Virus record (IMG/VR): IMGVR_UViG_3300030001_000013
Span: 1-57,365 of that record
From: a virus
Length of the DNA stretch: 57,365 nucleotides
Reading direction: 5' to 3' (one strand)
In this document: positions 864-56,144 of the stretch, piece by piece
Layout of the letters: each line of letters starts with the position of its first letter
Position numbering within the stretch: the first letter of the stretch is position 1
The notes under the pieces: generated by a model
Databases searched by the model: none
What the model was told of the DNA's origin: nothing
The model's input: the letters and a program-made list of their open reading frames with translations, nothing else
Translations under genes and position numbers: made by a program

Positions 864-1427
864 TCAACTCCCTATTTTCTTGACGTTACTTTCAAATAAT
901 TTCTTCATATCTCCATTCACACTGATCAATACTTTTACATTAATGCTATCGCTATTTTTCCTATTGATCAAATTTTCATAATGCTTTATGAAATGTGCCT
1001 GCTGTACGCTGATCTTTTCAGAACAACACATATTACGAAACCCAACTAATTTTACCGCTTCTGCGATCTCCGGCGTTGAAAATTCTAGCCGTCTACCAAC
1101 TGACCAACTTTTCATTTTGTCTTGAACTTCTCGCCATGCTTCTTCAATTGTTTTTACTTCTGACCCAATCGCTGTACCCATTACGCTTTTTGCTTCTTCA
1201 CGTATCTTTGCAATACTTGGAAAGAAATCTTTACATACATTCATACACTTAAAAACTGCCGCATTTAATTCTGTTGCGCTCAAATCACTTAATGCGATTG
1301 AATATGTGATTATTGTTTGTTTTGTTACCTTTGAATTAGGAAATGCATAAATTAACGGTCTCAATATCTTGCATATCTGCTGTTGCTTGATTGGTAAATC
1401 GTTGATTGCTAAATCGTCAATATCCAT
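864..1427 (-). CDS. Helicase loader/inhibitor-like replication protein
   Basis: The 187-residue protein has a middle region (TELNAAVFKCMNVCKDFFP, then SIAKIREEA) typical of phage proteins of the G39P or helicase-loader type: a helical N-terminus, a 'FFPSIAKI' turn, then a Trp-containing helix (EEAWREV). Its start overlaps the stop of the replication protein at 1427 by one base, so the two are translationally coupled. The likely role is recruiting the host DnaB-type helicase. The assignment rests on pattern and neighbourhood only. Confidence 0.55.
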   Translation of the reverse strand: MDIDDLAINDLPIKQQQICKILRPLIYAFPNSKVTKQTIITYSIALSDLSATELNAAVFKCMNVCKDFFPSIAKIREEAKSVMGTAIGSEVKTIEEAWREVQDKMKSWSVGRRLEFSTPEIAEAVKLVGFRNMCCSEKISVQQAHFIKHYENLINRKNSDSINVKVLISVNGDMKKLFESNVKKIGS

Positions 1428-1870
1428 TATTTACGCCCCTTGTAAAAATCATCAATATTGTTTTTCTTTGTCGATACTGCTTTACACTCAATTTGATTGA
1501 GATAGCTTTCAAAATGATCTGCCGCGAATAATGTTTCCGGTCGCAAATATTTAGCCTGATCTGTTCCTAACCACTCTTTGGCTTTTTTATCAATTACAAT
1601 TTTGAAATCCTCTTCTGTATGACCTTCTTGCCATCGTGCAGATATCTTGCTTTTTGTGCTCTTAATCTCTCTGTATTTAGTCCCTACGACTTGATTAAGG
1701 TATCCGATTATACTTGTATATGGTATTGCATTTTCTCGCTCTGACAGCTTTCTGATATCTGTTATAGCTAACATATAACCAACTTTGCATGATTCACTGA
1801 TTGAATTATTCTTTTCTAATTCATCTAGCCGCTTCAGTAAGAACTTTGCGGCTTTTTCTAATTCTGTCAT
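1427..1870 (-). CDS. Phage replication protein with conserved C-terminal domain (Phg_2220_C type)
   Basis: The protein is about 147 residues. Residues 55-135 carry the signature IIGYLNQVVGTKYR, a basic helix, W.EGHTEEDFKIVIDKK, and YLRPETLF, which is characteristic of the C-terminal domain of phage replisome organisers. The usual N-terminal winged-helix half is missing, so this is a short version. The start at 1870 is preferred over the ATG at 1876 because the AAGGAG site is then 9 nt away instead of 3. It is preceded by hairpin element A. Confidence 0.75.
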   Translation of the reverse strand: MTELEKAAKFLLKRLDELEKNNSISESCKVGYMLAITDIRKLSERENAIPYTSIIGYLNQVVGTKYREIKSTKSKISARWQEGHTEEDFKIVIDKKAKEWLGTDQAKYLRPETLFAADHFESYLNQIECKAVSTKKNNIDDFYKGRK

Positions 1871-1899
1871 AGGCATGCTCTCCTTTTCTCCATAACCTT

Positions 1900-1957: not shown

Positions 1958-2115
1958 TCATCAATAATTATTGATGTATAAGTCATTTTTGATAACATTC
2001 TTACTTTGTGACACTTTTTGCATTTGAATTTTACATTTTTACCTTTTGGTGAGAAATGTTCTTCGATCTCTGGAGAATTGCATTCAGGACATTCTAATCT
2101 ATAACCTGTTTTCAT
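1954..2115 (-). CDS. Small zinc-ribbon protein, 53 aa
   Basis: The ORF begins MKTGYRLECPECNSPEIEE and carries a second pair CKKC, giving CxxC-x22-CxxC, a rubredoxin-knuckle zinc ribbon. The GGGAGACG site lies just upstream of the ATG. It is the first gene after the promoter at 2166-2194. Its TGA stop is embedded in hairpin element A. The role is unknown; a small phage regulatory or nucleic-acid-binding protein is plausible. Confidence 0.75.
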   Translation of the reverse strand: MKTGYRLECPECNSPEIEEHFSPKGKNVKFKCKKCHKVRMLSKMTYTSIIIDD

Positions 2116-2135
2116 TTTAATCGTCTCCCTTATAT

Positions 2136-2149
2136 GTTCTAATCGAACC
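2136..2149 (-). promoter_or_regulatory. 5' UTR mini-hairpin (GGTTC...GAAC family)
   Basis: In the transcript from the promoter at 2166 the leader reads TATAGAAAAGGGGTTC, then GATTA, then GAAC, just before the ribosome-binding site. The same TATAGAAAA-GGTTC-loop-GAAC arrangement follows the promoters at 49583 and 56077. Confidence 0.5.
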
Positions 2150-2165
2150 CCTTTTCTATAGTCTT

Positions 2166-2194
2166 ATTATAACTCTCTGCTATATTAATGTAAA
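2166..2194 (-). promoter_or_regulatory. Early promoter with shared operator
   Basis: On the minus strand: TTTACA, 17 nt, TATAAT, with TATAGCAGAGAG immediately before the -10 box. This is nearly identical to the promoters at 5101, 9020, 49583 and 56077. It drives the zinc-ribbon and replication genes. Confidence 0.85.
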
Positions 2195-2212
2195 GAATTA
2201 TATTACAAATAA

Positions 2213-2482
2213 TTATAAAATAAATAACATTGCAAGCCATGTGATAAATGCAATAATTAATGAAATTTGTCCAATCCCCGGAATCGCCCCGATTAATGCC
2301 GCTTGCCACCATAAAACAACGGTTGTTCTTCCAAAATACGTCAGCCATGTATTTAAAGAATAATGCCAAAATAAAGCATCAACAGCAATAACAATTCCAT
2401 AAATTATAACCGGAATTATGCAACCTTGACCATATATAAATAAACCGAATACTGTTTTTATTACGTTTTTAAATTTTTTCAT
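2213..2482 (-). CDS. Small membrane protein, 89 aa
   Basis: It has two to three predicted membrane segments (about residues 8-30, 45-65 and 70-88) and a short basic N-terminus (MKKFKNVIK). No family is recognised. It lies between the DUF2303-like gene and the promoter at 2166, so it is probably the last gene of the recombination operon. A GGGAG site precedes the ATG. Confidence 0.6.
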   Translation of the reverse strand: MKKFKNVIKTVFGLFIYGQGCIIPVIIYGIVIAVDALFWHYSLNTWLTYFGRTTVVLWWQAALIGAIPGIGQISLIIAFITWLAMLFIL

Positions 2483-2505
2483 CCCATTAACTCCCTTATA
2501 ATTTT

Positions 2506-2533
2506 ATAAGAGGAGCAATTAAGCCCCTCCCTG
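2506..2533 (-). terminator. Weak intrinsic terminator-like hairpin
   Basis: On the minus strand GAGGGGC-TTAATT-GCTCCTC is followed by TTAT and an A/T-rich stretch. It lies between the DUF2303-like gene and the membrane protein and would give partial termination at most. Confidence 0.4.
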
Positions 2534-2534
2534 A

Positions 2535-3272
2535 TTAATAAATTACGCCTGTTACGATTAAGAACCCATCTAATCCGGCTTTGATTGTTTCAATTTCGTG
2601 CTTTACTGCTTCTCGCAAATATCGATCATACTTAGGACAACTTAACTTGAATACTAACTTGTCATCCTGGCTTTTCGGTGCTACAATTTCTAATTCAATT
2701 TCAACTTCTTGAAAAAAGCCGCTTTCATTAAAAATTTCAATGTTTGGCAATATCACTTTTGGTAATGAAGTTGTTCCTTCGACTGAACCATTTTGGGTGG
2801 CAACCTTAACTGCAAAAGTATGATTGTTGTCATCATCAAACGACGATTCAAAATCAATGGTTGTATTTCCTTTAAATGTTTGCAGGTTCACAAGCAGACT
2901 TTCCAAACAACCTAATTCATCCTCTTCGCGGCGTTGAAAGAAATTTACGATTTCTTTTTGATAAAATGATGCACCATTTGAAGTTAAAATATTTCCCCAT
3001 TCTTCAACCTGCTGTGACAATTCATAAGCATATGTCACATGATCTTGATTTCTTTCGATAACCTGATCATTTAAGATAGCACATACTCTTTTTTCTGTAT
3101 ATGCAACTACTGCATTTTCTTTTACAGCCTTTGACTGTAACAACGCAATGAATGCCTGTGATGATTTTGCTTCGTATTTAAATCCTCTGTATTGGTAAAT
3201 CTCCGGCGCATCACCTTCGCGTACAATTACTTCTTTTGCTCCATCAACCATTTTTAATTCGATTTTTTCCAT
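2535..3272 (-). CDS. DUF2303-like (YfdQ-type) phage protein
   Basis: The 245-residue soluble protein has a central segment (VNFFQRREEDELGCLESL) followed by a beta-rich C-terminal half (TIDFESSFDDDNN, then IEIFNESGFFQEVEIELE). This matches the order of the DUF2303 family of phage early proteins. The function is unknown; family members sit next to recombination genes, as here. The start at 3272 (MEKIEL) is preferred because GGAGG then lies about 11 nt upstream; an ATG at 3290 is an alternative. Confidence 0.65.
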   Translation of the reverse strand: MEKIELKMVDGAKEVIVREGDAPEIYQYRGFKYEAKSSQAFIALLQSKAVKENAVVAYTEKRVCAILNDQVIERNQDHVTYAYELSQQVEEWGNILTSNGASFYQKEIVNFFQRREEDELGCLESLLVNLQTFKGNTTIDFESSFDDDNNHTFAVKVATQNGSVEGTTSLPKVILPNIEIFNESGFFQEVEIELEIVAPKSQDDKLVFKLSCPKYDRYLREAVKHEIETIKAGLDGFLIVTGVIY

Positions 3273-3273
3273 A

Positions 3274-3612
3274 TTATTTAACTCCTCCATCTTCTGTTCC
3301 TGTCAATTTTGCTGGTACTGCCTGAAATAAATCAACCGCTTTTAATGCTTCGCGCGGTTTTTCTGTTTTCAATTTCATATCACCTGTTAATGTACAAAGA
3401 CCTTTGCGCTTGCTGACCGGAAATTTAGGTGTTACACTGCATTCAGCAACAACCATCGTATCCATATCCTCTGGCCTTGATAATGCGATTGTAATGCTAA
3501 TGCCGCCCTTTTGACCTTTTTGAATTGCTGACATTAATACTGGAATAATCGAATCAAACTTCTTGGCAACCTCGCCGCCACAAATGTTTTGCAATGTTAA
3601 TTCTTCTTCCAT
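3274..3612 (-). CDS. Hypothetical early protein, 112 aa
   Basis: The soluble protein has a Gly-rich segment (IQKGQKGGISITIALSRPED) then a basic segment (VSKRKGLCTLTGDMKLKTEK). Its TAA abuts the preferred start of the DUF2303-like gene with one base between them, which implies translational coupling and shared function. No domain is recognised with confidence. Confidence 0.65.
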   Translation of the reverse strand: MEEELTLQNICGGEVAKKFDSIIPVLMSAIQKGQKGGISITIALSRPEDMDTMVVAECSVTPKFPVSKRKGLCTLTGDMKLKTEKPREALKAVDLFQAVPAKLTGTEDGGVK

Positions 3613-5000: not shown

Positions 5001-5060
5001 TAGAATGCGTTTGGCATTCCATAGAGCCTACCAACGCTTGATAAGCCCTAGCAATGTCAA
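5001..5060 (-). promoter_or_regulatory. Intercistronic hairpin element, copy B
   Basis: On the minus strand: TTGACATTGC, stem AGGGCTTATC / GGTAGGCTCT with loop AAGCGTT, then the perfect hairpin GAATGC-CAAAC-GCATTC. The loop CGTTGG could pair with the CCAAACG loop. This copy follows no gene. Instead it follows an AUG-UAA start-stop codon pair at 5071-5076. Confidence 0.75.
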
Positions 5061-5076: not shown

Positions 5077-5100
5077 CTTAACCACCTTCTAACTTCTCTT

Positions 5101-5129
5101 ATTATAACTCTGTGCTATATAATTGTAAA
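5101..5129 (-). promoter_or_regulatory. Early promoter with shared operator
   Basis: TTTACA, 17 nt, TATAAT on the minus strand, with TATAGCACAGAG before the -10 box. It lies just downstream of recT and feeds the 4971-2213 gene group, giving that group transcription independent of recT. Confidence 0.85.
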
Positions 5130-5159
5130 GCTTTTTATTACTAATATCTATATTTTATA

Positions 5160-8986: not shown

Positions 8987-9019
8987 ACTGTATTCACCGC
9001 CTTTCCTTAACCTGTTCTT

Positions 9020-9048
9020 ATTATAACTCTCTGCTATAAATAAGTAAA
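9020..9048 (-). promoter_or_regulatory. Main leftward early promoter at the lysogeny switch
   Basis: TTTACT, 17 nt, TATAAT on the minus strand with TATAGCAGAGAG in the spacer. It faces the repressor promoter at 9117. GCTATAA half-sites occur at 9033, 9059 and 9138, consistent with a multi-site operator region. Confidence 0.85.
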
Positions 9049-9116
9049 GACTTTTATTGCTATAAATATTAATTTGTTACTTTTTAGCCTTTATTATAAT
9101 TATTGATTATATCTTA

Positions 9117-9178: not shown

Positions 9179-9556
9179 ATGAAAAATCTAGGGTCAAAAT
9201 TGAAAGAATTGCGGAAGATGGAACGCTTAACCACGAAAGAATTAGCGGACAAACTCCAATTGTCGCAACCCTATATTAGTCAGATTGAAAGCGGCGGGCG
9301 CGTTCCACATCCTAAGAACATTCAAAAAATGGCAGACTTTTTCAACGTCCCGTACGGATACCTTATGACAGACGAAGCAATCAACCTAGATGAATTTAAA
9401 CAGGTTGAGGGGCTAATTATAGATAGAGGTAAAGAGAAATATATTCCATATTATTTAGTAGTTGATAAAGCAATTGAGGAGGAAATAACCCCCAGTGAAT
9501 TAGAAGATGCAATCGATTTTGTTAAAAAATATAAAAATAAAACGCCCTCAACATAA
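9179..9556 (+). CDS. CI-like phage repressor, HTH_3 domain
   Basis: The 125-residue protein begins with an XRE-type HTH (LKELRKMERLTTKELADKLQ, then LSQPYISQIESGGRVPHP; residues 8-60). A short variable C-terminal half follows with no LexA-like Ser-Lys peptidase. Induction therefore probably does not rely on self-cleavage, unlike lambda CI. It is one of two long plus-strand genes and is divergent from the Cro-like gene. It is the obvious candidate to bind the operator shared by the early promoters. Confidence 0.85.
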   Translation: MKNLGSKLKELRKMERLTTKELADKLQLSQPYISQIESGGRVPHPKNIQKMADFFNVPYGYLMTDEAINLDEFKQVEGLIIDRGKEKYIPYYLVVDKAIEEEITPSELEDAIDFVKKYKNKTPST

Positions 9557-9570
9557 GAGGGCGTTTTCTG
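9540..9570 (+). terminator. Repressor terminator
   Basis: AACGCCCTC-AACATAA-GAGGGCGTT followed by TTCT; the stem includes the stop codon of the repressor gene. Confidence 0.8.
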
Positions 9571-9682
9571 TTAATAAAAATTCTTTTTCATATATTTTAT
9601 TCACTAAAAATATTCCACCGATAAAAGCCCATTTTACAGATTTACTATGCCAAGCATAAATAATGTATCTTGCATGTAACAT
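9548..9682 (-). CDS. Small convergent protein, 44 aa
   Basis: The ATG at 9682 has an excellent AAGGCGG site 5 nt upstream. The peptide starts MLHARYIIYAWHSKSVKWAF and has one possible membrane segment. It runs against the repressor gene and overlaps its last three codons. A TTGTAA-17-TATAAT promoter lies upstream on the same strand. The product is unknown; its transcript could also act as antisense to the repressor 3' end. Confidence 0.45.
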   Translation of the reverse strand: MLHARYIIYAWHSKSVKWAFIGGIFLVNKIYEKEFLLTENALLC

Positions 9683-9779
9683 TGAATCCGCCTTCTTTTC
9701 GACTGATTATGAATATTTTTATTTAAATTATATTATAAATTAAAATTATAAATATTACAATAGGGGATATGTCAAAATA

Positions 9780-10898
9780 ATGAATAAACGCGCGAATGGT
9801 GAAGGAACATTTAGAATCAGAGATAATGGAACATGGGAATGCATGATAAGATACAATGGAAAACGCCATAGTGTATATGGTAAATCAAGAAAAGAATGCA
9901 TCACAAAATTAAAAGAATTAAAAAAGAAACTTGATTTTGGAATTGCAGAAAAATCAAAGCATATGACATATGAAACTCTTTTAAAAAATTATCTTGAAAA
10001 TATTATAGCGATCAAGAATAGACCGTCAACCTATGATAATTATAAAATCGTTATAGATAATCACCTAATACCTCATTTAGGAAAATATAAAGTTGATAAA
10101 TTAACGCGTACTGATATTCAAGACATGATCAAGAAAGAAAAGAAAGCGGGAAAATCTGCAAGCACTATCGGCTTAATTCATCATGTTTGCAAGACTTCGC
10201 TTGCCTATGCTATTGAATTAAAAATCATCATGGAAAATCCATCTTTCGGCGTTGTTAAGCCACAAATTGATAAAAAGGAAATGAGCGTATTAACCGAAGA
10301 CCAATTCCGTCATTTACGTGATGTTGGCGGCGATATTCGATCCAAAGAAAGAATGTTTTCCTGTTTTATATTTATGTTTTACACCGGACTGCGGCGCGGT
10401 GAAGCACTAGGATTAAAATGGTCTGATATTGATATGACTGAAAAATCATTATCAATGAAACGTGCTGTCACTAAATCAACATCAAAAGGCATTATAATTA
10501 CAAAAGGAAAAACTGCCCGCGCTGTACGAGCAATACCACTGCCGGAAAACTCAATAAAAGAATTGCTGATCTTTAAAGAAACACAAGCAAAAGAAAAAGC
10601 ATTTTACGGTAAAAAATACAATAATGAAAATTGGATATTCTGCCGACCGGACGGGAAACGTTATTACCCTACATCATTACGAAAAATATTCCTCCGTATT
10701 CTGGCTCTAGCAGACATTCCACCGATTCGAGTACATGATACTAGGCATACATTTGCAACGTTCTTGATGCTTGCAGGAGAGAACCCCAAGACTGTACAGG
10801 CAATTATGGGTCATGCTAATATTTCAACGACTTTAGGATATAGTCATGTTACTGATGGATTAAAACGTCAAGCGGCTGATAAATTGGATAATATATAA
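9780..10898 (+). CDS. int: Tyrosine-recombinase integrase
   Basis: The 372-residue protein has an arm-binding N-terminus (EGTFRIRDNGTWECMIRYNG), a SAM-like core-binding region (about 65-165) and the catalytic domain with Arg in TGLRRGEALGL, HDTRHTFATF and GHANISTTLGYSHV (R, H-x-x-R, H, Tyr). It should recombine attP at 13.7-14.0 kb with a host tRNA-Asp gene. It lies 3 kb from attP, separated by the Rep module, which is unusual because integrases are mostly adjacent to attP. Confidence 0.95.
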   Translation: MNKRANGEGTFRIRDNGTWECMIRYNGKRHSVYGKSRKECITKLKELKKKLDFGIAEKSKHMTYETLLKNYLENIIAIKNRPSTYDNYKIVIDNHLIPHLGKYKVDKLTRTDIQDMIKKEKKAGKSASTIGLIHHVCKTSLAYAIELKIIMENPSFGVVKPQIDKKEMSVLTEDQFRHLRDVGGDIRSKERMFSCFIFMFYTGLRRGEALGLKWSDIDMTEKSLSMKRAVTKSTSKGIIITKGKTARAVRAIPLPENSIKELLIFKETQAKEKAFYGKKYNNENWIFCRPDGKRYYPTSLRKIFLRILALADIPPIRVHDTRHTFATFLMLAGENPKTVQAIMGHANISTTLGYSHVTDGLKRQAADKLDNI

Positions 10899-10970: not shown

Positions 10971-11409
10971 AAAAGGATACATATTACTATGGAACTATTT
11001 TATTTAGAAGAGTGTTACCCAATTGATTTATAAGCCTAATCAGAATTTAGTTTTAGATTACAACCTTGTAAGAATAATCTGCTTATCAAATGTTTAGTTT
11101 TTTCACGTCTGCACTCTCCAACCAGCTTTTAGCCAATCCAGGGAATCGAACCCCATATTTTCGCTGTGCCGCGAAACGCTTTACCTTTAAGCTATATTGA
11201 CATATGGAGCAGAGGGCAGGATTCGCACCTGCTTTGTCGGTAAAGGTCTCCCGCCGACTATATATGGATTCTAAGCTTTGCTGAGTTACAATTATATTGA
11301 TTTCAGTTATTGTGATGTTGAGCGGAACTTCATACATTTTCATGCTCCATAATGTGCGCTTGTTCCCGCACTTCCCGCGTGTCTCACCACGCCGCACCAA
11401 CTTCTTACA
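10971..11409 (-). ncRNA. Candidate structured RNA transcript with tRNA-like segments
   Basis: A promoter at 11416-11444 and a terminator at 10941-10970 bound about 440 nt with no convincing conserved gene. The RNA would contain hairpins GCGTG-GTGAGA-CACGC and GTGCG-GGAACAAG-CGCAC near the 5' end. Two tRNA-like T-arm/acceptor ends follow (GCAGGTGCGAATCCTGC... ending CCA, and the 71-nt element at 11131-11201). An 85-codon ORF (start 11343, MKMYEVPLNI) runs through it. Its C-terminal part simply translates the tRNA-like sequence, so coding is doubtful but not excluded, since GGAG precedes the ATG. A phage-borne structured RNA or a decayed tRNA cluster are both possible. Confidence 0.4.
11131..11201 (-). 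tRNA. Degenerate tRNA-like element (Cys-like frame)
   Basis: A near-cloverleaf: acceptor GTCAATA / GATTGGC (6 of 7 pairs), TA at positions 8-9, D-stem GCTT / AAGC, anticodon stem TTTCG / CGAAA, T-arm TGGGG-TTCGATT-CCCTG, and discriminator U as in tRNA-Cys. The anticodon loop is eight nt (CGGCACAG) with no U33, and no CCA is encoded. It is therefore probably a pseudo-tRNA or a tRNA mimic. Confidence 0.4.
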
Positions 11410-11415
11410 ATTCTT

Positions 11416-11444
11416 ATTATACTTCTAAGCTATTCCATTGTCAA
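11416..11444 (-). promoter_or_regulatory. Promoter of the candidate RNA unit
   Basis: TTGACA, 17 nt, TATAAT: the best consensus -35 box among these promoters. The spacer (ATAGCTTAGAAG) is a diverged form of the early operator. Confidence 0.85.
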
Positions 11445-11489
11445 TACTTTTATTACTAAAAGCTATAAATTTATTGATGTTTTTTGAAT

Positions 11490-11651
11490 TTATTTTACCT
11501 TCTTATCATTTTCTCGCCTTTGCTTTAACTCAGCCATTATTTTATATACGCTTAATGCATTCTTACGTTCGCTTTGAAAAAACGCACTTCTTGCTTTTAT
11601 TTCATACCACTCCATTAAACTATCTAAAGATTTATCGCTTATTACTTCCAT
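11490..11651 (-). CDS. Small helical protein, 53 aa
   Basis: ATG GAA GTA... gives MEVISDKSLDSLMEWYEIKA and an Arg/Lys-rich helical tail. AAGGTGG lies 7 nt upstream, inside the end of the zinc-ribbon gene, so translation is coupled. The function is unknown. Confidence 0.65.
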   Translation of the reverse strand: MEVISDKSLDSLMEWYEIKARSAFFQSERKNALSVYKIMAELKQRRENDKKVK

Positions 11652-11653
11652 AA

Positions 11654-11914
11654 TTATTCCACCTTATCTTTAATATCCTTTACCCACTTTTCCTTTGTCG
11701 TTCCTGTTGCTCCGCATTTCATGCAAACAAAATAGCCCTTATAACATCCATATTGATTACCGCCGCGCAAATATCGCTTGTCACTATGTCCGCTGATCTT
11801 CTTTATGTTTGTACTGCCGCAATATTCGCAACACTTCACACTCATATAACCCTTTTTCCTAAGAAATAACCATGCTAATTTTAGTCTTTGATAAAATGAT
11901 TCTTTACTTGCCAT
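11654..11914 (-). CDS. Zinc-ribbon protein, 86 aa
   Basis: The core CCEYCGSTNIKKISG ... CMKCGATG gives a four-cysteine ribbon, with a basic N-terminal helix (FYQRLKLAWLFLRKKG). The ATG at 11914 has AAAGGTG upstream. It belongs to the small-gene tail of the rep operon. It probably binds nucleic acid or protein; no family assignment is possible. Confidence 0.7.
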   Translation of the reverse strand: MASKESFYQRLKLAWLFLRKKGYMSVKCCEYCGSTNIKKISGHSDKRYLRGGNQYGCYKGYFVCMKCGATGTTKEKWVKDIKDKVE

Positions 11915-12055
11915 TTACACTCTCACCTTTATATATAAATACCCTGTCATGATAGCAATAGCCCAATAAATAATAAATTTAATAAACCACGTTCTATGTT
12001 CTTTTCTTATTTGTCTTTTTTCTTTTATTTGCTGGACTGTTATTTCATATTTCAC
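11915..12055 (-). CDS. Small membrane protein, 46 aa, GTG start
   Basis: A basic N-terminus (QQIKEKRQIRKEHR) is followed by one hydrophobic segment (WFIKFIIYWAIAIMTGYLYI). The GTG overlaps the end of the 111-residue gene, and AAGG lies 8 nt upstream. Confidence 0.6.
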   Translation of the reverse strand: MKYEITVQQIKEKRQIRKEHRTWFIKFIIYWAIAIMTGYLYIKVRV

Positions 12056-12380
12056 TTTGATCAACCTTTTCCATTTTATGTTTTATATAAATATACAAAT
12101 TTGTATGATGTTCTATATACATTGTTTTGTTTACTACTAGCACATGATCTCGTGGATAATCGTCAAATTCAACGCCATGCATTAATCTTGTGTTAATGCA
12201 AATTTCTTGTACTTTACTAATTGAATTATTTATTAAGAATTTCTTAAAAAATACTTTATCTCCATATGCTATAAATATTCCATCAATTGAACATATGGCA
12301 AAACGTCTTTTATTTGTTTTTATATCCCATACAAAACGTTTTAAAATAGACTGTTGACGAATTGTTAATGTTTTCATCAT
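12045..12380 (-). CDS. Hypothetical protein downstream of rep, 111 aa
   Basis: The soluble basic protein (MMKTLTIRQQSILKRFVWDI) overlaps the rep stop as ATGA, so it is translationally coupled to rep. No domain is recognised. A role in replication or copy control is inference from position only. Confidence 0.6.
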   Translation of the reverse strand: MMKTLTIRQQSILKRFVWDIKTNKRRFAICSIDGIFIAYGDKVFFKKFLINNSISKVQEICINTRLMHGVEFDDYPRDHVLVVNKTMYIEHHTNLYIYIKHKMEKVDQSEI

Positions 12381-13228
12381 GCCGCCACCTTTCGCAATAG
12401 ATTGGTCAATATACCATCACTAAGAAAATGCCATATCTTATAATCACAATCTTTATATTCTGTATTGAAATACTTATCCATTGCCAAAATCATAATGTCG
12501 AAACTTGCCTGAAATTCTTTATCTTCATTTACTGAATAATAACTGTTTGATATGAATATGCTGTTAAGCTGTTCATATATTCTGCTATCACGTATAGGAG
12601 CATGATGTTCATCGAATCGATTCATATACCTTCGATCAAATTCTTGTATGCAACTTATTGTCAAATCTAAAGAATCTTTCGCATAATACGTAGCAGGTAT
12701 CCATCGTTTATTTTTACCGTCCTCGGTATAACCCGAGCATTTATCTTTTAATTCTTTAGTATCTTTTATAGAATAATCTTTTATAGAAGTATCTTTGTTA
12801 GGCCATTTTGACACTTGGTCTAGTTTCGTTTTGATATTTGGTCTAATGTCATTTTGAACTTTGGTTATTTTAGGGGGTTCATCTATTTGATCATAATCAG
12901 AAAGAGAATCCATTTTTTGTGTATGCTTAACATAATAAAATCTTCCGGCTATGCCTTTTTTATTTGTTATGACAATACTTTCTAAAAATCCATCATCACA
13001 TAATTTTGTCAACATTCTTTTCAATTTGCTCATACTGCCAATAATTGGTATTTGTTGAAGCAAATATGATTGATTTACCCATATGTAACGTTTAGATTCA
13101 TTAATAAGGCTTTCCATACTATCACTTGAATACATATCCTTTATTGTTCTAAGCAATAGAGCATCTTCCAATGATAGATTATTCTCTATAAGCTTATTTT
13201 GTTGAAATCCTAAAACTGTATATTTCAT
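12377..13228 (-). CDS. Plasmid/phage-type replication initiator (winged-helix Rep)
   Basis: The 283-residue protein starts with the conserved N-terminus of Firmicute phage/plasmid replication proteins: YTVLGFQQNKLIENNLSLED, then LLLRTIKDM, then YIWVNQSYLLQQIPIIGSM and a recognition-helix segment SKLKRMLTKLCDDGFLES. A linker and a helical C-terminal domain (about 180-283) follow. It is preceded by a 208-nt leader with a terminator just before the gene and an antisense promoter inside. That is the layout of pIP501/pAMbeta1-type copy control, so it probably drives plasmid-like replication. The ATG has an AGAGGGG site. Confidence 0.7.
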   Translation of the reverse strand: MKYTVLGFQQNKLIENNLSLEDALLLRTIKDMYSSDSMESLINESKRYIWVNQSYLLQQIPIIGSMSKLKRMLTKLCDDGFLESIVITNKKGIAGRFYYVKHTQKMDSLSDYDQIDEPPKITKVQNDIRPNIKTKLDQVSKWPNKDTSIKDYSIKDTKELKDKCSGYTEDGKNKRWIPATYYAKDSLDLTISCIQEFDRRYMNRFDEHHAPIRDSRIYEQLNSIFISNSYYSVNEDKEFQASFDIMILAMDKYFNTEYKDCDYKIWHFLSDGILTNLLRKVAA

Positions 13229-13254
13229 TTTGCCCCTCTTTTCTTTTAGACAAA

Positions 13255-13283
13255 CAAAAAAGCAACCGCTAAACGATTGCTTA
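13255..13283 (-). terminator. Attenuator in the rep leader
   Basis: On the minus strand AAGCAATCG-TTTA-GCGGTTGCTT followed by TTTTG, about 30 nt before the rep ATG. The 5' arm AGCAATCG can alternatively pair with the leader segment CGATTCGCT (13378-13386, one bulge), which would form an antiterminator. Confidence 0.8.
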
Positions 13284-13315
13284 CTGACACTTATCCAATT
13301 TCGAGCCTTTTAGTA

Positions 13316-13344
13316 TTGCCACCACAATTTACCTATGGTATAAT
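13316..13344 (+). promoter_or_regulatory. Promoter of the antisense RNA
   Basis: TTGCCA, 17 nt, TATAAT on the plus strand, inside the rep leader and pointing against it. Confidence 0.85.
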
Positions 13345-13350
13345 ATTACT

Positions 13351-13425
13351 AAAGGTTTGCTGATTGGTTCAGGTTTTCAGCGAATCGCCTGAAAGTGTTA
13401 GCGCACCGACAGGCTTTATTTTTTT
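13351..13425 (+). ncRNA. Antisense RNA to the rep leader (copy-control type)
   Basis: The predicted RNA of about 75 nt starts 7 nt after the -10 box. It has a 5' hairpin (GCTGA ... TCAGC) and a 3' terminator hairpin GCCTG-AAAGTGTTAGCGCACCGA-CAGGC followed by TTTATTTTTTT. It is fully complementary to the rep mRNA leader. Its single-stranded linker AGCGAATCG covers the leader segment that would serve as antiterminator. By analogy with RNAIII of pIP501 it should promote premature termination at 13255-13283. Confidence 0.75.
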
Positions 13426-13445
13426 GTCCGAATGTATGTAAGTTC

Positions 13446-13474
13446 ATTATAACTCATAGCAATGTAATAAACAA
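13446..13474 (-). promoter_or_regulatory. rep promoter
   Basis: TTGTTT, 17 nt, TATAAT on the minus strand, 208 nt upstream of the rep ATG. The spacer contains TGCTATGAG, a variant of the shared early operator. Confidence 0.8.
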
Positions 13475-13487
13475 CTTAAAAAGTAAT

Positions 13488-13516
13488 TTGCGCTATGATA
13501 CAATATGTGGTATTAT
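13488..13516 (+). promoter_or_regulatory. Promoter of a second small RNA
   Basis: TTGCGC, 17 nt, TATTAT on the plus strand, followed within 75 nt by a strong intrinsic terminator and no ORF. Confidence 0.65.
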
Positions 13517-13522
13517 AAATTC

Positions 13523-13587
13523 ATAGCTCATGTTTTTCGTTCTCCAACGAAAGAAAAAGACCAACATTAATTTGTTGGTCTTTTTTG
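13523..13587 (+). ncRNA. Predicted trans-acting small RNA with a CUCC loop
   Basis: The RNA would contain TAGCTCATGTTTTTCGTT, a 7-bp hairpin TTTCGTT-CTCC-AACGAAA presenting an anti-Shine-Dalgarno CUCC loop, and a terminator GACCAACA-TTAATT-TGTTGGTC followed by TTTTTT. It is complementary to the start regions of the Rad50-like gene (13 contiguous bases plus GGAG), of the gene starting at 49538 (11 bases plus GGAG) and, less well, of the gene starting at 394. Alternatively the minus strand is a relic start site (GGAG...ATG, 12 codons). Confidence 0.55.
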
Positions 13588-13653
13588 TGTCTATGCGTTA
13601 TAATATTGATGCTTACAATCTAATTCTATACGTATTATTTTGCTTTGTTGCTG

Positions 13654-13783: not shown

Positions 13784-13859
<76 letters not shown>

Positions 13860-15428: not shown

Positions 15429-15639
15429 TCACTTCAACCTCAATTCTTTCATTGTTTTTACTAAACGGATGACAAGAAAATATTTCAACTGTGTTCTTAT
15501 CGAACCATCTATAATTGCACCGTGCTATTTCAAAACCATCCTGAAGGATTTTACCTATATTTTCTTTTGAAATGATAGGAGAGGGAAGAATGAAAAATCC
15601 AACCCTATCCGTTTTAACCATTTCAACTAATTTACTCAC
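15421..15639 (-). CDS. Hypothetical protein in the lysis region, 72 aa
   Basis: The small soluble alpha/beta protein (VGFFILPSPIISKENIGKIL) overlaps both neighbours by 4-8 nt, so it is co-translated with the amidase and the peptidase candidate. Its function is unknown. Confidence 0.6.
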   Translation of the reverse strand: MSKLVEMVKTDRVGFFILPSPIISKENIGKILQDGFEIARCNYRWFDKNTVEIFSCHPFSKNNERIEVEVIE

Positions 15640-16133
15640 GCCGCCATAACCTCTTTGATTATTTCAGGCAATTGAGCATACATCGTATCGCCTGGACACG
15701 CTGTTGCATCGTTTGGATTGCCGCTGATATCTGCAACATCGCTATGACCGATTGTTTTAACATCCCTGCCATAAATACTATACAATTCGCCTAGCAATTC
15801 TTTTAAAGAATTGATCTGTTTTTCTGTAGGTGTAACATAATTGTCTTGTCCGGTCTGAAAATTACCTTCCAATACAATCCCTAACGATTCAAAATTAACG
15901 CCGTGAGCATGAGCACCAACCGTGTCACGAGGCCTGCCACGAACTACTTTACCATCACCTTTAATAACATAATGATAAGCTATACCATTATCGCCAATAT
16001 TGATATGTTCATCCCATATTTCCTGCGTGTCTTGCATTTGACCGCCTGTTGTGTGATGGATAACAAAATAATTTGTCTCTGATCTTTCAGATAATTCCCT
16101 TGGAAACTGCCAATCTTTTTCTATAATGTCCAC
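15636..16133 (-). CDS. Endolysin: N-acetylmuramoyl-L-alanine amidase (PGRP type)
   Basis: The 165-residue protein has a zinc site formed by YFVIHHTTGG (His 26-27) and the distal CPGDTMY, with the central HYVIKGDGKVVRGRP segment, the classic Amidase_2 layout. No separate wall-binding domain is present, which suits a thin diderm wall. It cleaves the lactam bond between MurNAc and the stem peptide. It is encoded next to the holin. Confidence 0.92.
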   Translation of the reverse strand: MDIIEKDWQFPRELSERSETNYFVIHHTTGGQMQDTQEIWDEHINIGDNGIAYHYVIKGDGKVVRGRPRDTVGAHAHGVNFESLGIVLEGNFQTGQDNYVTPTEKQINSLKELLGELYSIYGRDVKTIGHSDVADISGNPNDATACPGDTMYAQLPEIIKEVMAA

Positions 16134-49169: not shown

Positions 49170-49227
49170 TGGAATGGTTTGGCACTCCATGAAGCCCACT
49201 CGATAGAATGGACTTTTGCAATGTCAA
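49170..49227 (-). promoter_or_regulatory. Intercistronic hairpin element, copy C
   Basis: TTGACATTGC, stem AAGTCCATTC / GAGTGGGCTT with loop TATC, then hairpin TGGAGTG-CCAAAC-CATTCCA. Both stems differ in sequence from copies A and B yet still pair, which supports an RNA structure. The upstream TAA ends 8 nt before the element. Confidence 0.75.
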
Positions 49228-49569: not shown

Positions 49570-49582
49570 TTTTCTATATCTT

Positions 49583-49611
49583 ATTATAACTCTCTGCTAT
49601 AAATATGTAAA
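49583..49611 (-). promoter_or_regulatory. Early promoter with shared operator
   Basis: TTTACA, 17 nt, TATAAT with TATAGCAGAGAG before the -10 box; it drives the 49538-46130 gene run. Confidence 0.85.
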
Positions 49612-49631
49612 GCTTTTTATTATTATTAGCA

Positions 49632-49657
49632 ATAAAAAAAGACCACGAAATTGTGGT
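49632..49657 (-). terminator. Terminator after the RinA/ArpU-like gene
   Basis: AGACCACAA-TTT-CGTGGTCT followed by a run of T on the minus strand. Confidence 0.88.
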
Positions 49658-51572: not shown

Positions 51573-51594
51573 ATTGCAATAACTTTATAATTTT

Positions 51595-51623
51595 ATTATA
51601 ACTCTCAGCAATAATTTAGGCAA
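51595..51623 (-). promoter_or_regulatory. Early promoter with shared operator
   Basis: TTGCCT, 17 nt, TATAAT with TTGCTGAGAG before the -10 box; it drives the DUF1064, MazG and RinA-like genes. Confidence 0.75.
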
Positions 51624-51641
51624 TGAAAATACTTTTTATCT

Positions 51642-52364
51642 TTAAACTATTTCTCTACTAGGCTTTGAATCTGCGCGTGTTACATAATATTTATTTGTGA
51701 TCAATGTTGCAGGTTCTTTATTATCTCCGAATGACTGCGGTGCAAAACGATCTACAAAAACACGTTCGCCGCATTCCCTGCAAGCACAAAAGTTTGTATC
51801 TGCGAATAATCTAGCAAAATATGTTGCGCCGCATCCACAATCAATTTTGTATAATACTTTGTTTAAATCGCGCTGAACTGTTGTTTCATTGTTTTTTATA
51901 CTGTAATCAGGAACTAAATCAGTTTCTATGTTTGATTTAACATTTTCTTTGCTTACATTAGGCGGCAATAAAAGACCTTCACTGTGATCTGTAGCTGTTT
52001 TACCTTGCAAAAATCTGCTAAATTCTGACTTATGCTCTTGAATAATATGTTTGCTCATTGAATTTGTAATATTTTTAAATACGTCTGCATCTACTTCGGG
52101 AATGCTCATATTTACTGTACGACCGCATCCACAATTATGGTGTTCTATATTTTTCGCTTTTGGCTCTGATGTGCCAACTTCTGTAATTTCTATGCTGATC
52201 ACATTTTTTAAATCAATTGAAAATGTTTGACCATCACCAGATTTTGTGAAGAAAATACCACCATTTCCATGGGCTTTCGCTACTGCCAACGCCACATTTA
52301 ATTTTAACGCATATGTGTATTTTCTTCCTGCTCTTGTTGTCAATTCTAATAATGATTCGTTCAT
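51642..52364 (-). CDS. Two-zinc-cluster hypothetical protein, 240 aa
   Basis: The protein contains NCGCGRTV near residue 79 and IDCGCGATYF ... CACRECG near 175-200, suggesting two zinc ribbons. The N-terminus is beta-rich. It lies in the SSB region and may bind DNA; no family is recognised. Confidence 0.6.
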   Translation of the reverse strand: MNESLLELTTRAGRKYTYALKLNVALAVAKAHGNGGIFFTKSGDGQTFSIDLKNVISIEITEVGTSEPKAKNIEHHNCGCGRTVNMSIPEVDADVFKNITNSMSKHIIQEHKSEFSRFLQGKTATDHSEGLLLPPNVSKENVKSNIETDLVPDYSIKNNETTVQRDLNKVLYKIDCGCGATYFARLFADTNFCACRECGERVFVDRFAPQSFGDNKEPATLITNKYYVTRADSKPSREIV

Positions 52365-53349: not shown

Positions 53350-53670
53350 CTAATCGCAATAACTTCTATTACAATGTGGACAACCTGTAATTAATTCTGT
53401 GCTTGCTCTTTCAAGCGAAATACCATATACACGGTCAACCATTTCACCATCAATATTACATTCTGTTCCTCTTGAATATGGCGCATCTGGATTGTCTTTA
53501 TATCCTACATTCTGATAAATATTTTTATTGCAATTCCAACAAATTCCGCTATGAGGTGCGAAATCAGGATAACCATTTTTATTCTGATAATCCGATTGTG
53601 ATTTTGCGCATTCACTAATTTCTTTATCAGTCTTTCTTATTAACTTTTCCGTAAAGATACCCCATTTCAT
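53350..53670 (-). CDS. Zinc-binding hypothetical protein, 106 aa
   Basis: GICWNCNKNIYQNVGY and TGCPHCNRSYCD give two CxxC pairs. The start overlaps parB by 43 nt; a later start is possible. Its function is unknown. Confidence 0.6.
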   Translation of the reverse strand: MKWGIFTEKLIRKTDKEISECAKSQSDYQNKNGYPDFAPHSGICWNCNKNIYQNVGYKDNPDAPYSRGTECNIDGEMVDRVYGISLERASTELITGCPHCNRSYCD

Positions 53671-54457
53671 ATTCTATATTTTTATTGCCTAATGCTGTTT
53701 CAATAGCCGCCACATCTTCTTTTGAAATGTTAAATATTTTCATCATAACACTGACATTGGGTTTATCCTTTGTCTTGATCTCTCTTTTTACTTCCTGCAC
53801 GGCCTTGAATGAAACTTCCTTGCCTTTGTTATCCTGCATTACCTTGGTTTGCTCTTCTGGTTCTAAGCTTGCCAACTCTGCCGCTGTTGAAAACTTTAAA
53901 TTGTCTTTTTTCATTTCTTCTTTTAATTCAGGAATTAGATTATTTTCGATGTTATCCATCTTAGCAATCTTCGCAGACGAAACGCCTATTGTCTTTGAAA
54001 CAAAATCCCGCAATCTTCCGGGTACTTTATTTTCTTTGCAATACTCAATAAGCGGCTCTTTCAATCGCTTGTACTGCTCGATCTTTTCCCATTCAGATAA
54101 TTTTCTTGTTCCCATATTGGCAATGATAATAGCAATCTGTTCCTCTGATCTACTCCTGAATGTCTCTACCTGACAAGGAACATGATCGTCTATATCAACA
54201 CCCCTGCTAATTAGATTCATCATTGCCTGCCGCCGTCTATGCCCTGAAATTACTTTATATCCACCCCCTTCTAACGGCGTAACAATCAGATTTTCTTTTA
54301 CGCCGCCCCTGATTTCAATTGCATCCTCTAAACTTTCAATGTCGCTTAGTGTATAAAAATTATCTTCATGTGGGACTAATTCATAAACACTGATCTGTTT
54401 CATAACACCTTTTTCAACTAAATCATCTTTTTTGATGAAACTATTTAATAAACCCAT
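53627..54457 (-). CDS. parB: ParB-family partition protein
   Basis: The 276-residue protein begins with a ParB N domain (ISVYELVPHEDNFYTLSDIE, GGGYKVISGHRRRQAM), followed by a central HTH region (VPGRLRDFVSKTIGVSSAKI, AKMDNIENNLIPELKEEM). Start ATG 54457 is chosen because AGGAGG lies 8 nt upstream. It partners with ParA to segregate the extrachromosomal form. The parS site is not identified. Confidence 0.9.
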   Translation of the reverse strand: MGLLNSFIKKDDLVEKGVMKQISVYELVPHEDNFYTLSDIESLEDAIEIRGGVKENLIVTPLEGGGYKVISGHRRRQAMMNLISRGVDIDDHVPCQVETFRSRSEEQIAIIIANMGTRKLSEWEKIEQYKRLKEPLIEYCKENKVPGRLRDFVSKTIGVSSAKIAKMDNIENNLIPELKEEMKKDNLKFSTAAELASLEPEEQTKVMQDNKGKEVSFKAVQEVKREIKTKDKPNVSVMMKIFNISKEDVAAIETALGNKNIEYEMGYLYGKVNKKD

Positions 54458-54469
54458 TGTCATTACCTC

Positions 54470-55213
54470 CTATAGATTGAAATACTCTTTTGTAAATGTA
54501 ATATAATCCATTGTTGCACCGCTCCGGCGTGAATAATTAATAAGTGGACGTTGTACAAATGTGCTACCTGCTACTTTTGCAGAATAGCGAATCCTTGTAT
54601 TAAAAATCTTGTAATCTTTGATGTTTTGATCGCTTATAATTTCATTTTCTGTTTTATTGTAACGAGTTATCAAGCACCCTTTAAACGACAATTTAGGATT
54701 TATTTCCTTCACTTCTTCTATAATCCCCTTTAATTGATCGAATCCGTCAAAGCTGAACTGATCCACTACGACAGGTACAATGATTTCATCTGATGCACTT
54801 AGAACATTTGTAACGCTTGCGTTTATGTCCGGCGGGTTATCAATAATACAATAATCATAATCATTAACGCTTGCTAATGCTCTTTGCAATATCTTGGCTG
54901 TTCCAATGCTCATTTTTGCCGCAAGCATGTTATTTGTTTCAAACAATTTCATATTAGAAGGTAATACGTCTAGCCCTTCATATTTCGTATGCTGAATAAC
55001 ATTTTCAATTGATTTACTTTTCAAAAGAACATCTGAAATACTTGGATTTTCCTGATCATACAATCCAAAAAACTTGCTTGTGTTGCCCTGCTTGTCATTA
55101 TCAATGATTAATACTTTTTTATGGAACATTGTTGCTAGAATATGAGAAACATTAATCGAAGTGATACTTTTCCCCACGCCGCCTTTTAGATTCATAATGG
55201 TTATAACTTTCAT
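54470..55213 (-). CDS. parA: ParA-family partition ATPase
   Basis: The 247-residue protein has a deviant Walker A NLKGGVGKSITSINVSHIL at the N-terminus, IIDNDKQGNTSKFFGL, and the Walker B region YCIIDNPPDI. There is no N-terminal HTH, so it is a type Ib-like ParA. It is preceded by hairpin element D and lies 12 nt upstream of parB. Confidence 0.95.
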   Translation of the reverse strand: MKVITIMNLKGGVGKSITSINVSHILATMFHKKVLIIDNDKQGNTSKFFGLYDQENPSISDVLLKSKSIENVIQHTKYEGLDVLPSNMKLFETNNMLAAKMSIGTAKILQRALASVNDYDYCIIDNPPDINASVTNVLSASDEIIVPVVVDQFSFDGFDQLKGIIEEVKEINPKLSFKGCLITRYNKTENEIISDQNIKDYKIFNTRIRYSAKVAGSTFVQRPLINYSRRSGATMDYITFTKEYFNL

Positions 55214-55237: not shown

Positions 55238-55292
55238 TAGAGTTTTGGCACTCTATAGAGCCTATCAACTTGATAAACTCTAACAATGTCAA
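55238..55292 (-). promoter_or_regulatory. Intercistronic hairpin element, copy D
   Basis: TTTGACATTG, stem TAGAGTTTATC / GATAGGCTCTA with loop AAGTT, then hairpin TAGAGT-GCCAAA-ACTCTA, just before the parA ribosome-binding site. The upstream TAA ends 4 nt before the element. Confidence 0.75.
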
Positions 55293-55495: not shown

Positions 55496-55545
55496 TTTGG
55501 CACTCCATGAAGCCCACTCAATCGAATGGACTTTTGCAATGTCAA
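55496..55545 (-). promoter_or_regulatory. Intercistronic hairpin element, copy E (short)
   Basis: TTTGACATTGC, stem AAGTCCATTC-GATT-GAGTGGGCTT, then CATGGAGTGCCAAAA. The second hairpin lacks its 3' arm. The TGA stop of the upstream gene is directly adjacent. Confidence 0.7.
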
Positions 55546-55758: not shown

Positions 55759-55808
55759 TTTTGGAACTCTATAGAACCCACTCACCGAATGAGTTCTAAC
55801 AATGTCAA
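55759..55808 (-). promoter_or_regulatory. Intercistronic hairpin element, copy F (short)
   Basis: TTTGACATTG, stem TAGAACTCATTC-GGT-GAGTGGGTTCTA, then TAGAGTTCCAAAA. The upstream gene's TGA is inside TTTGACATTG. It lacks the second hairpin. Confidence 0.7.
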
Positions 55809-56059: not shown

Positions 56060-56076
56060 ACTCTTTCTATGTCTCT

Positions 56077-56105
56077 ATTATAACTCTCTGCTATATTAAT
56101 GTAAA
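56077..56105 (-). promoter_or_regulatory. Early promoter with shared operator
   Basis: TTTACA, 17 nt, TATAAT with TATAGCAGAGAG before the -10 box; it drives the small genes plus parA, parB and ssb. Confidence 0.85.
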
Positions 56106-56144
56106 GCTTTTTATTGCAAATAATTATATTATTTTACAAAAGAA

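Follow-up and report, generated by a model that had tools for sequence, protein, structure and literature searches.

The stretch of DNA analysed here, referred to as the window, comprises an entire IMG/VR virus record (57,365 bases). Its minus-strand genes follow the order early genes (RecT, SbcC-like, SSB, ParA and ParB), terminase and portal, tail and lysis, tRNA-Phe and finally a cassette containing the replication initiator gene rep (Table 1). A 4.5-kb sister contig (L011), which is 87-90% identical to the window over the main aligned pieces and encodes a ParA 93% identical to that of the window, reads across both ends of the record (L011 1971-2011 corresponds to window 42-2, and 2009-3380 to window 57365-55994), and this indicates that the phage genome is circular or circularly permuted. 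ParA/ParB genes (53627-55213, minus strand) and a tyrosine integrase gene coexist in this one phage. The former suggest a phage that can exist as a plasmid, whereas the integrase points the opposite way. The repressor gene (9179-9556) encodes an HTH_3 protein (HTH_XRE/PF01381). Downstream of rep are three small genes, probably cotranscribed with it, whose products (111, 86 and 53 amino acids) gave no family match; no relative of the 111-aa protein was found in viral_contigs. Between the end of the integrase gene and the rep cassette there is a degenerate tRNA-like sequence (11131-11201, minus strand; Rfam 32.9 bits, not called by ARAGORN), which is a candidate for the attP region.

Table 1. 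Features of the rep cassette and its surroundings; positions are those of the window unless a contig is named.
Feature	Position	Strand	Remarks
Repressor and tyrosine integrase genes	9179-10898	+	
Three small genes 3' of rep	11490-12380	-	111, 86 and 53 aa
rep	12377-13228	-	phage replication initiator, 283 aa, winged-helix N-terminal domain
AT-rich repeats adjoining the iterons	12761-12796		15 bp x 2.4; predicted unwinding element
Iterons inside rep	12804-12865		23 bp x 2.7; predicted origin
Attenuator (intrinsic terminator), directly 5' of rep SD	13282-13255	-	10-bp stem, T6 tract
Antisense promoter	13316-13344	+	11/12 consensus, ideal 17-bp spacer, TG extended -10
Predicted antisense RNA	13351 to 13423/13427	+	about 72-77 nt; two abutting hairpins, then TTTATTTTTTT
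Antiterminator segment CGATTCGCT of rep leader	13387-13379	-	inside antisense target
Antisense terminator hairpin	13387-13423	+	GCCTG...CAGGC and T tract; dG -11.4
Sense (rep) promoter	13474-13446	-	predicted start near 13439
Hairpin terminator between tRNA-Phe side and rep promoter	13554-13585		13 pairs, T tracts on both sides
tRNA-Phe	13784-13859		
Amidase (lysis gene)	15636-16133	-	
ParB-like gene	53627-54463	-	
ParA gene	54470-55213	-	
Repeated hairpin copies	1907-1957, 5010-5060, 49178-49227, 55244-55292, 55496-55545, 55760-55808	-	
Repeated hairpin copies in sister contig	L011:80, 415, 3586	+	

The N-terminal half of Rep matches phrog_428 (replication initiation proteins, E 4e-5), the sole family match, since none was obtained in Pfam or NCBIfam. 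Rep is 38% identical to a protein of Fusobacterium phage phiFN37 and 40-48% identical to its best-matching initiators in IMG/VR and GTDB (41-48% for the IMG/VR phages). For the N-terminal domain, a winged helix is predicted with high confidence (AlphaFold pLDDT about 90), and the matches of Rep to PDB structures, among them the DnaD N-terminal domain, are many but weak, none being below E 0.001. Rep was not recognized as an initiator of the Inc18 RepR/RepE type, and none of the plasmids in PLSDB encodes a relative of it at E <= 1e-5. Judged by these comparisons, Rep is a phage winged-helix initiator and not an Inc18 Rep. An early gene about 10.5 kb from rep (1427-1876, minus strand) supplies the C-terminal half of phrog_428 (Phg_2220_C), and the phrog_428 initiator may be split between these two genes.

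Because rep contains iterons and arrays of 22-23 bp occupy the equivalent position of the gene in five of the six relatives examined (L012, L013, L014, L033 and L034), it is very probable that the initiator carries its origin within its own gene. A 15-bp AT-rich repeat like that of the window is also present in rep of L013, L014 and L034. In the relatives examined the initiator gene belongs to an early operon, in several cases beside genes for a helicase loader, a primase or SSB. The rep gene of the window stands alone, between the lysis and tRNA genes and the integrase, and in the closest relative of the lysis region (L041) the corresponding gap has no rep. The original description of the phage as integrase-bearing undersold the setting, which also includes ParA/ParB-like genes and an intragenic iteron origin.

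The proposed rep promoter, TTGTTT-17-TATAAT, lies at 13446-13474 as predicted, with a perfect -10 and a poor -35 hexamer (3/6). The terminator expected 30 nt before rep was also found, its end being 26-31 nt from the ATG (13228), with the SD AGAGGGG at 13239-13233. Its stem (13282-13260, minus strand) is followed by TTTTTTGTTTG, the T tract extending to about 13254. The structure has a dG of about -11 kcal/mol (z = -5.0), and the hairpin is more stable on the sense strand than on the other one (-11.3 versus -6.5). Since the gap between attenuator and rep is too short for a promoter, every rep transcript must cross this terminator.

Both the opposing promoter TTGCCA-17-TATAAT (13316) and a terminated RNA close to the forecast length of about 75 nt are present in the sequence. 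When both strands of the 57-kb window were scanned for promoters with at least 5/6 matches in the -10 and at least 11/12 overall, this was the only plus-strand match and the only one bearing a TG on either strand; five of the other eight matches are copies of one repeated phage promoter. By consensus it is therefore the strongest plus-strand promoter of the genome, and a terminator comes 72 nt after it. The predicted RNA folds with -23.9 kcal/mol (z -2.6), and its hairpin 1, which has a 13-nt loop, abuts the terminator hairpin. Of the three hairpins, two are more stable on the strand predicted to be used, namely the attenuator and antisense hairpin 1 (-9.0 on the plus strand versus -5.0 on the sense strand). 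The antisense terminator stem is slightly less stable than its sense-strand hairpin (-11.4 versus -13.3), and its T tract is found on the plus strand only. YUNR motifs occur in both loops, but they are expected by chance in 13-nt loops and were not used as evidence.

One detail of the predicted RNA has to be corrected. The segment AGCGAATCG had been taken for a free single-stranded linker, and folding places it in the 3' arm of hairpin 1, where it is paired and directly followed by the terminator hairpin. Its exact complementarity to the leader segment is true, but any two opposing transcripts of one DNA segment would show it. Further upstream of the rep transcript, the region 13476-13590 (plus strand) has a weak TG promoter (9/12) and, after it, a strong terminator hairpin (z -5.4), and it could specify a second small plus-strand RNA.

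The antiterminator was found as described, with one bulged C, when the nascent leader was folded without constraints: CGATTCGCT (13387-13379) pairs with AGCAATCG (13281-13274). The duplex is worth -6.0 kcal/mol, as opposed to -10.8 for the terminator; as the terminator wins at equilibrium, the switch must be kinetic. In the unconstrained partition-function folding of a leader ended at 13274, where the 5' arm of the attenuator has just been made, GATT (13386-13383) pairs with AATC of the arm with a predicted probability of about 0.8. This value changes little across starts from 13437 to 13440 and stays at 0.7-0.95 over 25-42 C. The pairing is down to about 0.1 once the leader extends to 13264 and is lost altogether at 13262, as the 3' arm nears completion. 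Folding with and without the complementary segment masked gave the anticipated result, since arm pairing decreased from 0.56 to 0.21 when 13351-13427 was blocked.

The same measure applied to the repE leader of pAMbeta1 (L040, NC_013514), in which GATTGC pairs with GCAATC inside the RNAIII target, gave 0.57 versus 0.56 here. Of the shuffled leaders, 11.6% reached the value of the window overall and 2.7% did so inside the antisense target, and shuffled pAMbeta1 leaders reached that of pAMbeta1 in 7.5%. In these models the antiterminator equals that of a system whose function is proven; it is not an independent proof, being by itself only modestly above chance. With all the evidence taken together, antisense attenuation is the most likely function of the region, and the rep leader is probably a transcription attenuator controlled by an antisense RNA.

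It could be argued that the attenuator is governed by translation of a leader peptide (GTG 13325 to TAA 13281, VVAILKGSKLDKCQ), the antisense RNA being secondary or absent. The TAA stop overlaps the first bases of the attenuator stem and an AGG is found a few bases before the GTG. However, weakly started frames of 14 codons arise readily by chance, the frame does not have the single-codon run typical of amino-acid attenuators, and the promoter-terminator pair of the plus strand would remain unexplained, which makes this mechanism very unlikely. Somewhat less improbable, but still unlikely, is that the antisense RNA blocks rep translation or directs cleavage by RNase III, in the manner of pSK41 or of lambda OOP, and that the hairpin is a plain weak terminator. 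The RNAI of pSK41 is similar in size and place (PMC5703833), and OOP is a 77-nt self-terminating antisense RNA encoded near the lambda replication genes (PMC3349717). Nevertheless, the SD is outside the attenuator stem and more than 110 nt downstream of the antisense target, and an intrinsic terminator with a T6 tract is better suited to attenuation.

An antisense attenuator could also be mimicked by coincidence, if two ordinary terminators and a spurious promoter happened to lie in an AT-rich intergenic region and no antisense RNA were made. The antiterminator taken alone is within the range of chance, and no conserved counterpart of the leader was found in the databases searched. Against this, in the upstream regions of 775 ORFs (80 aa or longer) from the window and the fetched loci, strict settings returned the whole module once, at rep only, and dinucleotide shuffles of 13480-13229 produced it once in up to 3000. 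Relaxed settings gave two cases in 1159, of which the one at L029:2460(-) matches less well. The antisense promoter, moreover, is the best on its strand of the genome. Coincidence is thus quite unlikely, and the leader structure is, on these counts, real and non-random as an arrangement.

It must be taken into account that the module scan did not flag the true pAMbeta1 system, either with strict or with looser settings. The attenuator, the antisense promoter (11/12) and the RNAIII terminator (-6.9 kcal/mol) of pAMbeta1 are each visible individually; the strict scan missed the system because the RNAIII terminator is below the energy threshold, and the looser one may have missed it owing to the choice of ORF start. 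The scan is thus of limited sensitivity, and its specificity is better established.

No homologue of the leader was found in DNA searches of phages and plasmids. A second copy was likewise not found with the exact attenuator pattern in IMG/VR, at loci reached via Rep alone (IMG/VR and GTDB) or Rep profiles, or at those reached via the integrase, the 111-aa neighbour, ParA or the amidase. Close relatives of Rep are encoded in early operons without this leader. The Rfam ctRNA families pT181, pND324, pGA1 and p42d gave no match in 13229-13446 even at E <= 10, and Rfam as a whole gave no match of note in the leader. That none of the searches of phages, plasmids, IMG/VR and GTDB genomes yielded a leader homologue counts against the attenuation reading. 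A conserved non-coding region does exist upstream of rep in two relatives (L012:3580-3800 and L013:3590-3815), without an Rfam match at the gathering threshold. On inspection, its hairpins form better pairs on the strand opposite to that of rep, where G-U takes the place of A-C. It was considered as a possible second antisense RNA and rejected, being a different element in a different context.

Seven early promoters are dispersed over the minus strand (2153-2217, 5088-5152, 9007-9071, 11403-11467, 49570-49634, 51582-51646 and 56064-56128). Most of them are TTTACA- or TTGACA-17-TATAAT, with a common dyad ATAGC-N5-GTTAT, and one is situated in the divide between the repressor gene (9179, plus strand) and the first early gene (8986, minus strand). 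They are a probable repressor regulon. At the rep promoter, the 18 nt ATTGCTATGAGTTATAAT resemble the operator-like core ATAGCAGAGAGTTATAAT of these repeated promoters, and ATWGC-N3-GAGTTATAAT also occurs in six of the seven. A 20-nt matrix covering the -10, built without the rep site, ranks this site 9 in the whole window. When only the 14 nt preceding the -10 are used, however, it ranks 92 of about 115,000 positions, so that the likeness to the operator is weak once the -10 hexamer is set aside. Control of rep by the repressor is possible.

These data bear on the idea that the antisense RNA acts mainly as a factor of immunity or lytic timing on rep, like the CI RNA of P4, and not in plasmid copy control. 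The repressor would shut the promoter of a lytic initiator, Rep, in the prophage, and a constitutive antisense RNA would stop leaky or superinfecting rep transcripts. The resemblance of the rep promoter to the early promoters with their dyad, the presence of a tyrosine integrase and a prophage repressor, and the use of Rep-type initiators in the early operons of relatives all fit such a role, and P4 CI RNA is a system of this kind (PMC4825925). On the other hand, besides the weak operator likeness, ParA/ParB and a separate cassette of rep and origin suggest plasmid maintenance. This role, which overlaps with attenuation for copy control since the circuit is the same and only its use differs, is possible but less likely than not.

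Another repeated element of the genome is a hairpin of about 50 nt, TTGACATTG...GTGCCAAA, most copies of which immediately precede early genes, parA (55213) among them. In the nine copies, six pairs show changes on both sides, with 95% pairing as compared with 48% or less when slid. The element appears to be a structured motif of leader RNA (or DNA). At the gathering threshold, the Rfam scan of the window returned only tRNAs.

Returning to antisense attenuation of rep, the leader would set the amount of initiator made per genome copy. In transcripts starting from the promoter at 13446, segment 13387-13379 would capture the attenuator's 5' arm on its emergence, polymerase would escape and rep would be made. 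The opposing promoter at 13316-13344 would yield the short two-hairpin RNA in proportion to the number of genome copies. By pairing with 13351-13427 of the nascent leader, this RNA would occupy the antiterminator strand, the terminator would form 26-31 nt before rep and transcription would stop. As Rep would bind the iterons in its own gene, the circuit would amount to a negative feedback on initiation by genome number. The promoters, the two terminators, the complementarity behind the antiterminator, the iterons, the initiator family, the ParA/ParB genes and the circular or permuted genome can be read from the sequence. We infer the synthesis of both RNAs, termination caused by the antisense RNA, binding of the iterons by Rep, and a role of the circuit in the copy number or the immunity of a phage that can replicate as a plasmid. 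Because of the ParA/ParB-like genes and the intragenic iteron origin, rep, the origin and the antisense RNA could together form a plasmid-style replicon.

Among Gram-positive plasmids, control of the initiator gene by antisense attenuation is textbook knowledge. Among the open-access papers searched we found no account of antisense attenuation from a separate opposing promoter acting on the initiator of an integrase-bearing phage. If the proposed function is true, the same circuit would apparently have had an independent origin on an unrelated initiator. Moreover, it would suggest how a phage keeps a low and even genome number without integrating, and an RNA would join the determinants of superinfection immunity and incompatibility. 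Very tentatively, and with more doubt than belief, it can be imagined that a temperate phage moved its iteron origin and initiator from the early operon to a separate cassette under two locks, the immunity repressor acting on the promoter and the antisense attenuator within the leader. The copy-counting switch would then have evolved independently of Inc18 and pT181, allowing life as a partitioned plasmid while the integrase was kept.

The control had been called plasmid-type, on the plan of RNAIII in pIP501 and pAMbeta1. This stands for the logic, that is, the order of the elements and the pAMbeta1-like behaviour of the nascent leader, and not for descent, as the initiator matches those of phages, no PLSDB plasmid encodes a relative at E <= 1e-5 and the searches yielded no homologue of the leader. 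The anatomy and the predicted behaviour of the nascent leader match the RNAIII plan; transcription, termination and the effect on rep are predictions from the sequence. The Inc18 plasmids pIP501, pAMbeta1 and pSM19035, in which RNAIII induces attenuation of repR/repE, have the same order as the phage leader, which is also that of pT181: sense promoter, antisense target, antisense promoter, attenuator, SD and rep. Inc18 and the phage further share an antisense promoter within the leader, an antiterminator strand within the antisense target and an attenuator of the form AAGCAATC...TTGCTTTTTT just 5' of the SD. CopR of Inc18 is a small HTH_XRE/PF01381 repressor and the phage repressor is of the same family; however, the phage has no dedicated cop gene and the initiators are unrelated. 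The Inc18 antisense RNA has 136 nt and the leader about 300 nt (PMC4981023), as opposed to about 75 nt and about 210 nt in the phage. The leaders of pAMbeta1 and the phage have no significant DNA homology, and a common origin of the two was rejected, as the best local matches had E about 0.1.

In pT181, RNAI has 87 nt and a pre-emptor competes with a terminator immediately before the start of rep (PMC5703833). The phage resembles this system in the size of the antisense RNA and in the position of the terminator, whereas pT181 is a Rep_trans rolling-circle plasmid to which no sequence relation was found. Among phages, the parABS mycobacteriophages are temperate and carry ParAB with a phage-borne plasmid replicon whose origins are RepA- or RNA-based (PMC7157519), a paper that makes no use of the term attenuation. 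In those of cluster A the parABS cassette replaces the integration cassette, whereas the phage of the window has both. The CI RNA of satellite phage P4 is an antisense RNA that terminates the transcript of the phage's own replication genes in the prophage (PMC4825925). It is processed from that same transcript and pairs with seqA/seqC, in contrast to the separate opposing promoter found here, and by analogy it is a precedent for antisense-driven termination of phage replication genes.

The pSK41 plasmid (RepA_N) and the phage have in common a winged-helix DnaD-like initiator, an origin inside rep and a two-hairpin antisense RNA. RNAI of pSK41 is about 83 nt long, has two stem-loops, lies about 100 nt upstream of the rep start and sequesters the ribosome site rather than attenuating transcription (PMC5703833), so that this plasmid differs from the phage in the mode of control as well as in being a plasmid. 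The hybrid pPR9, in which a phage-type initiator N-domain is joined to this antisense control region (PMC5703833), shows that an initiator domain of phage type can work under the antisense control region of a plasmid.
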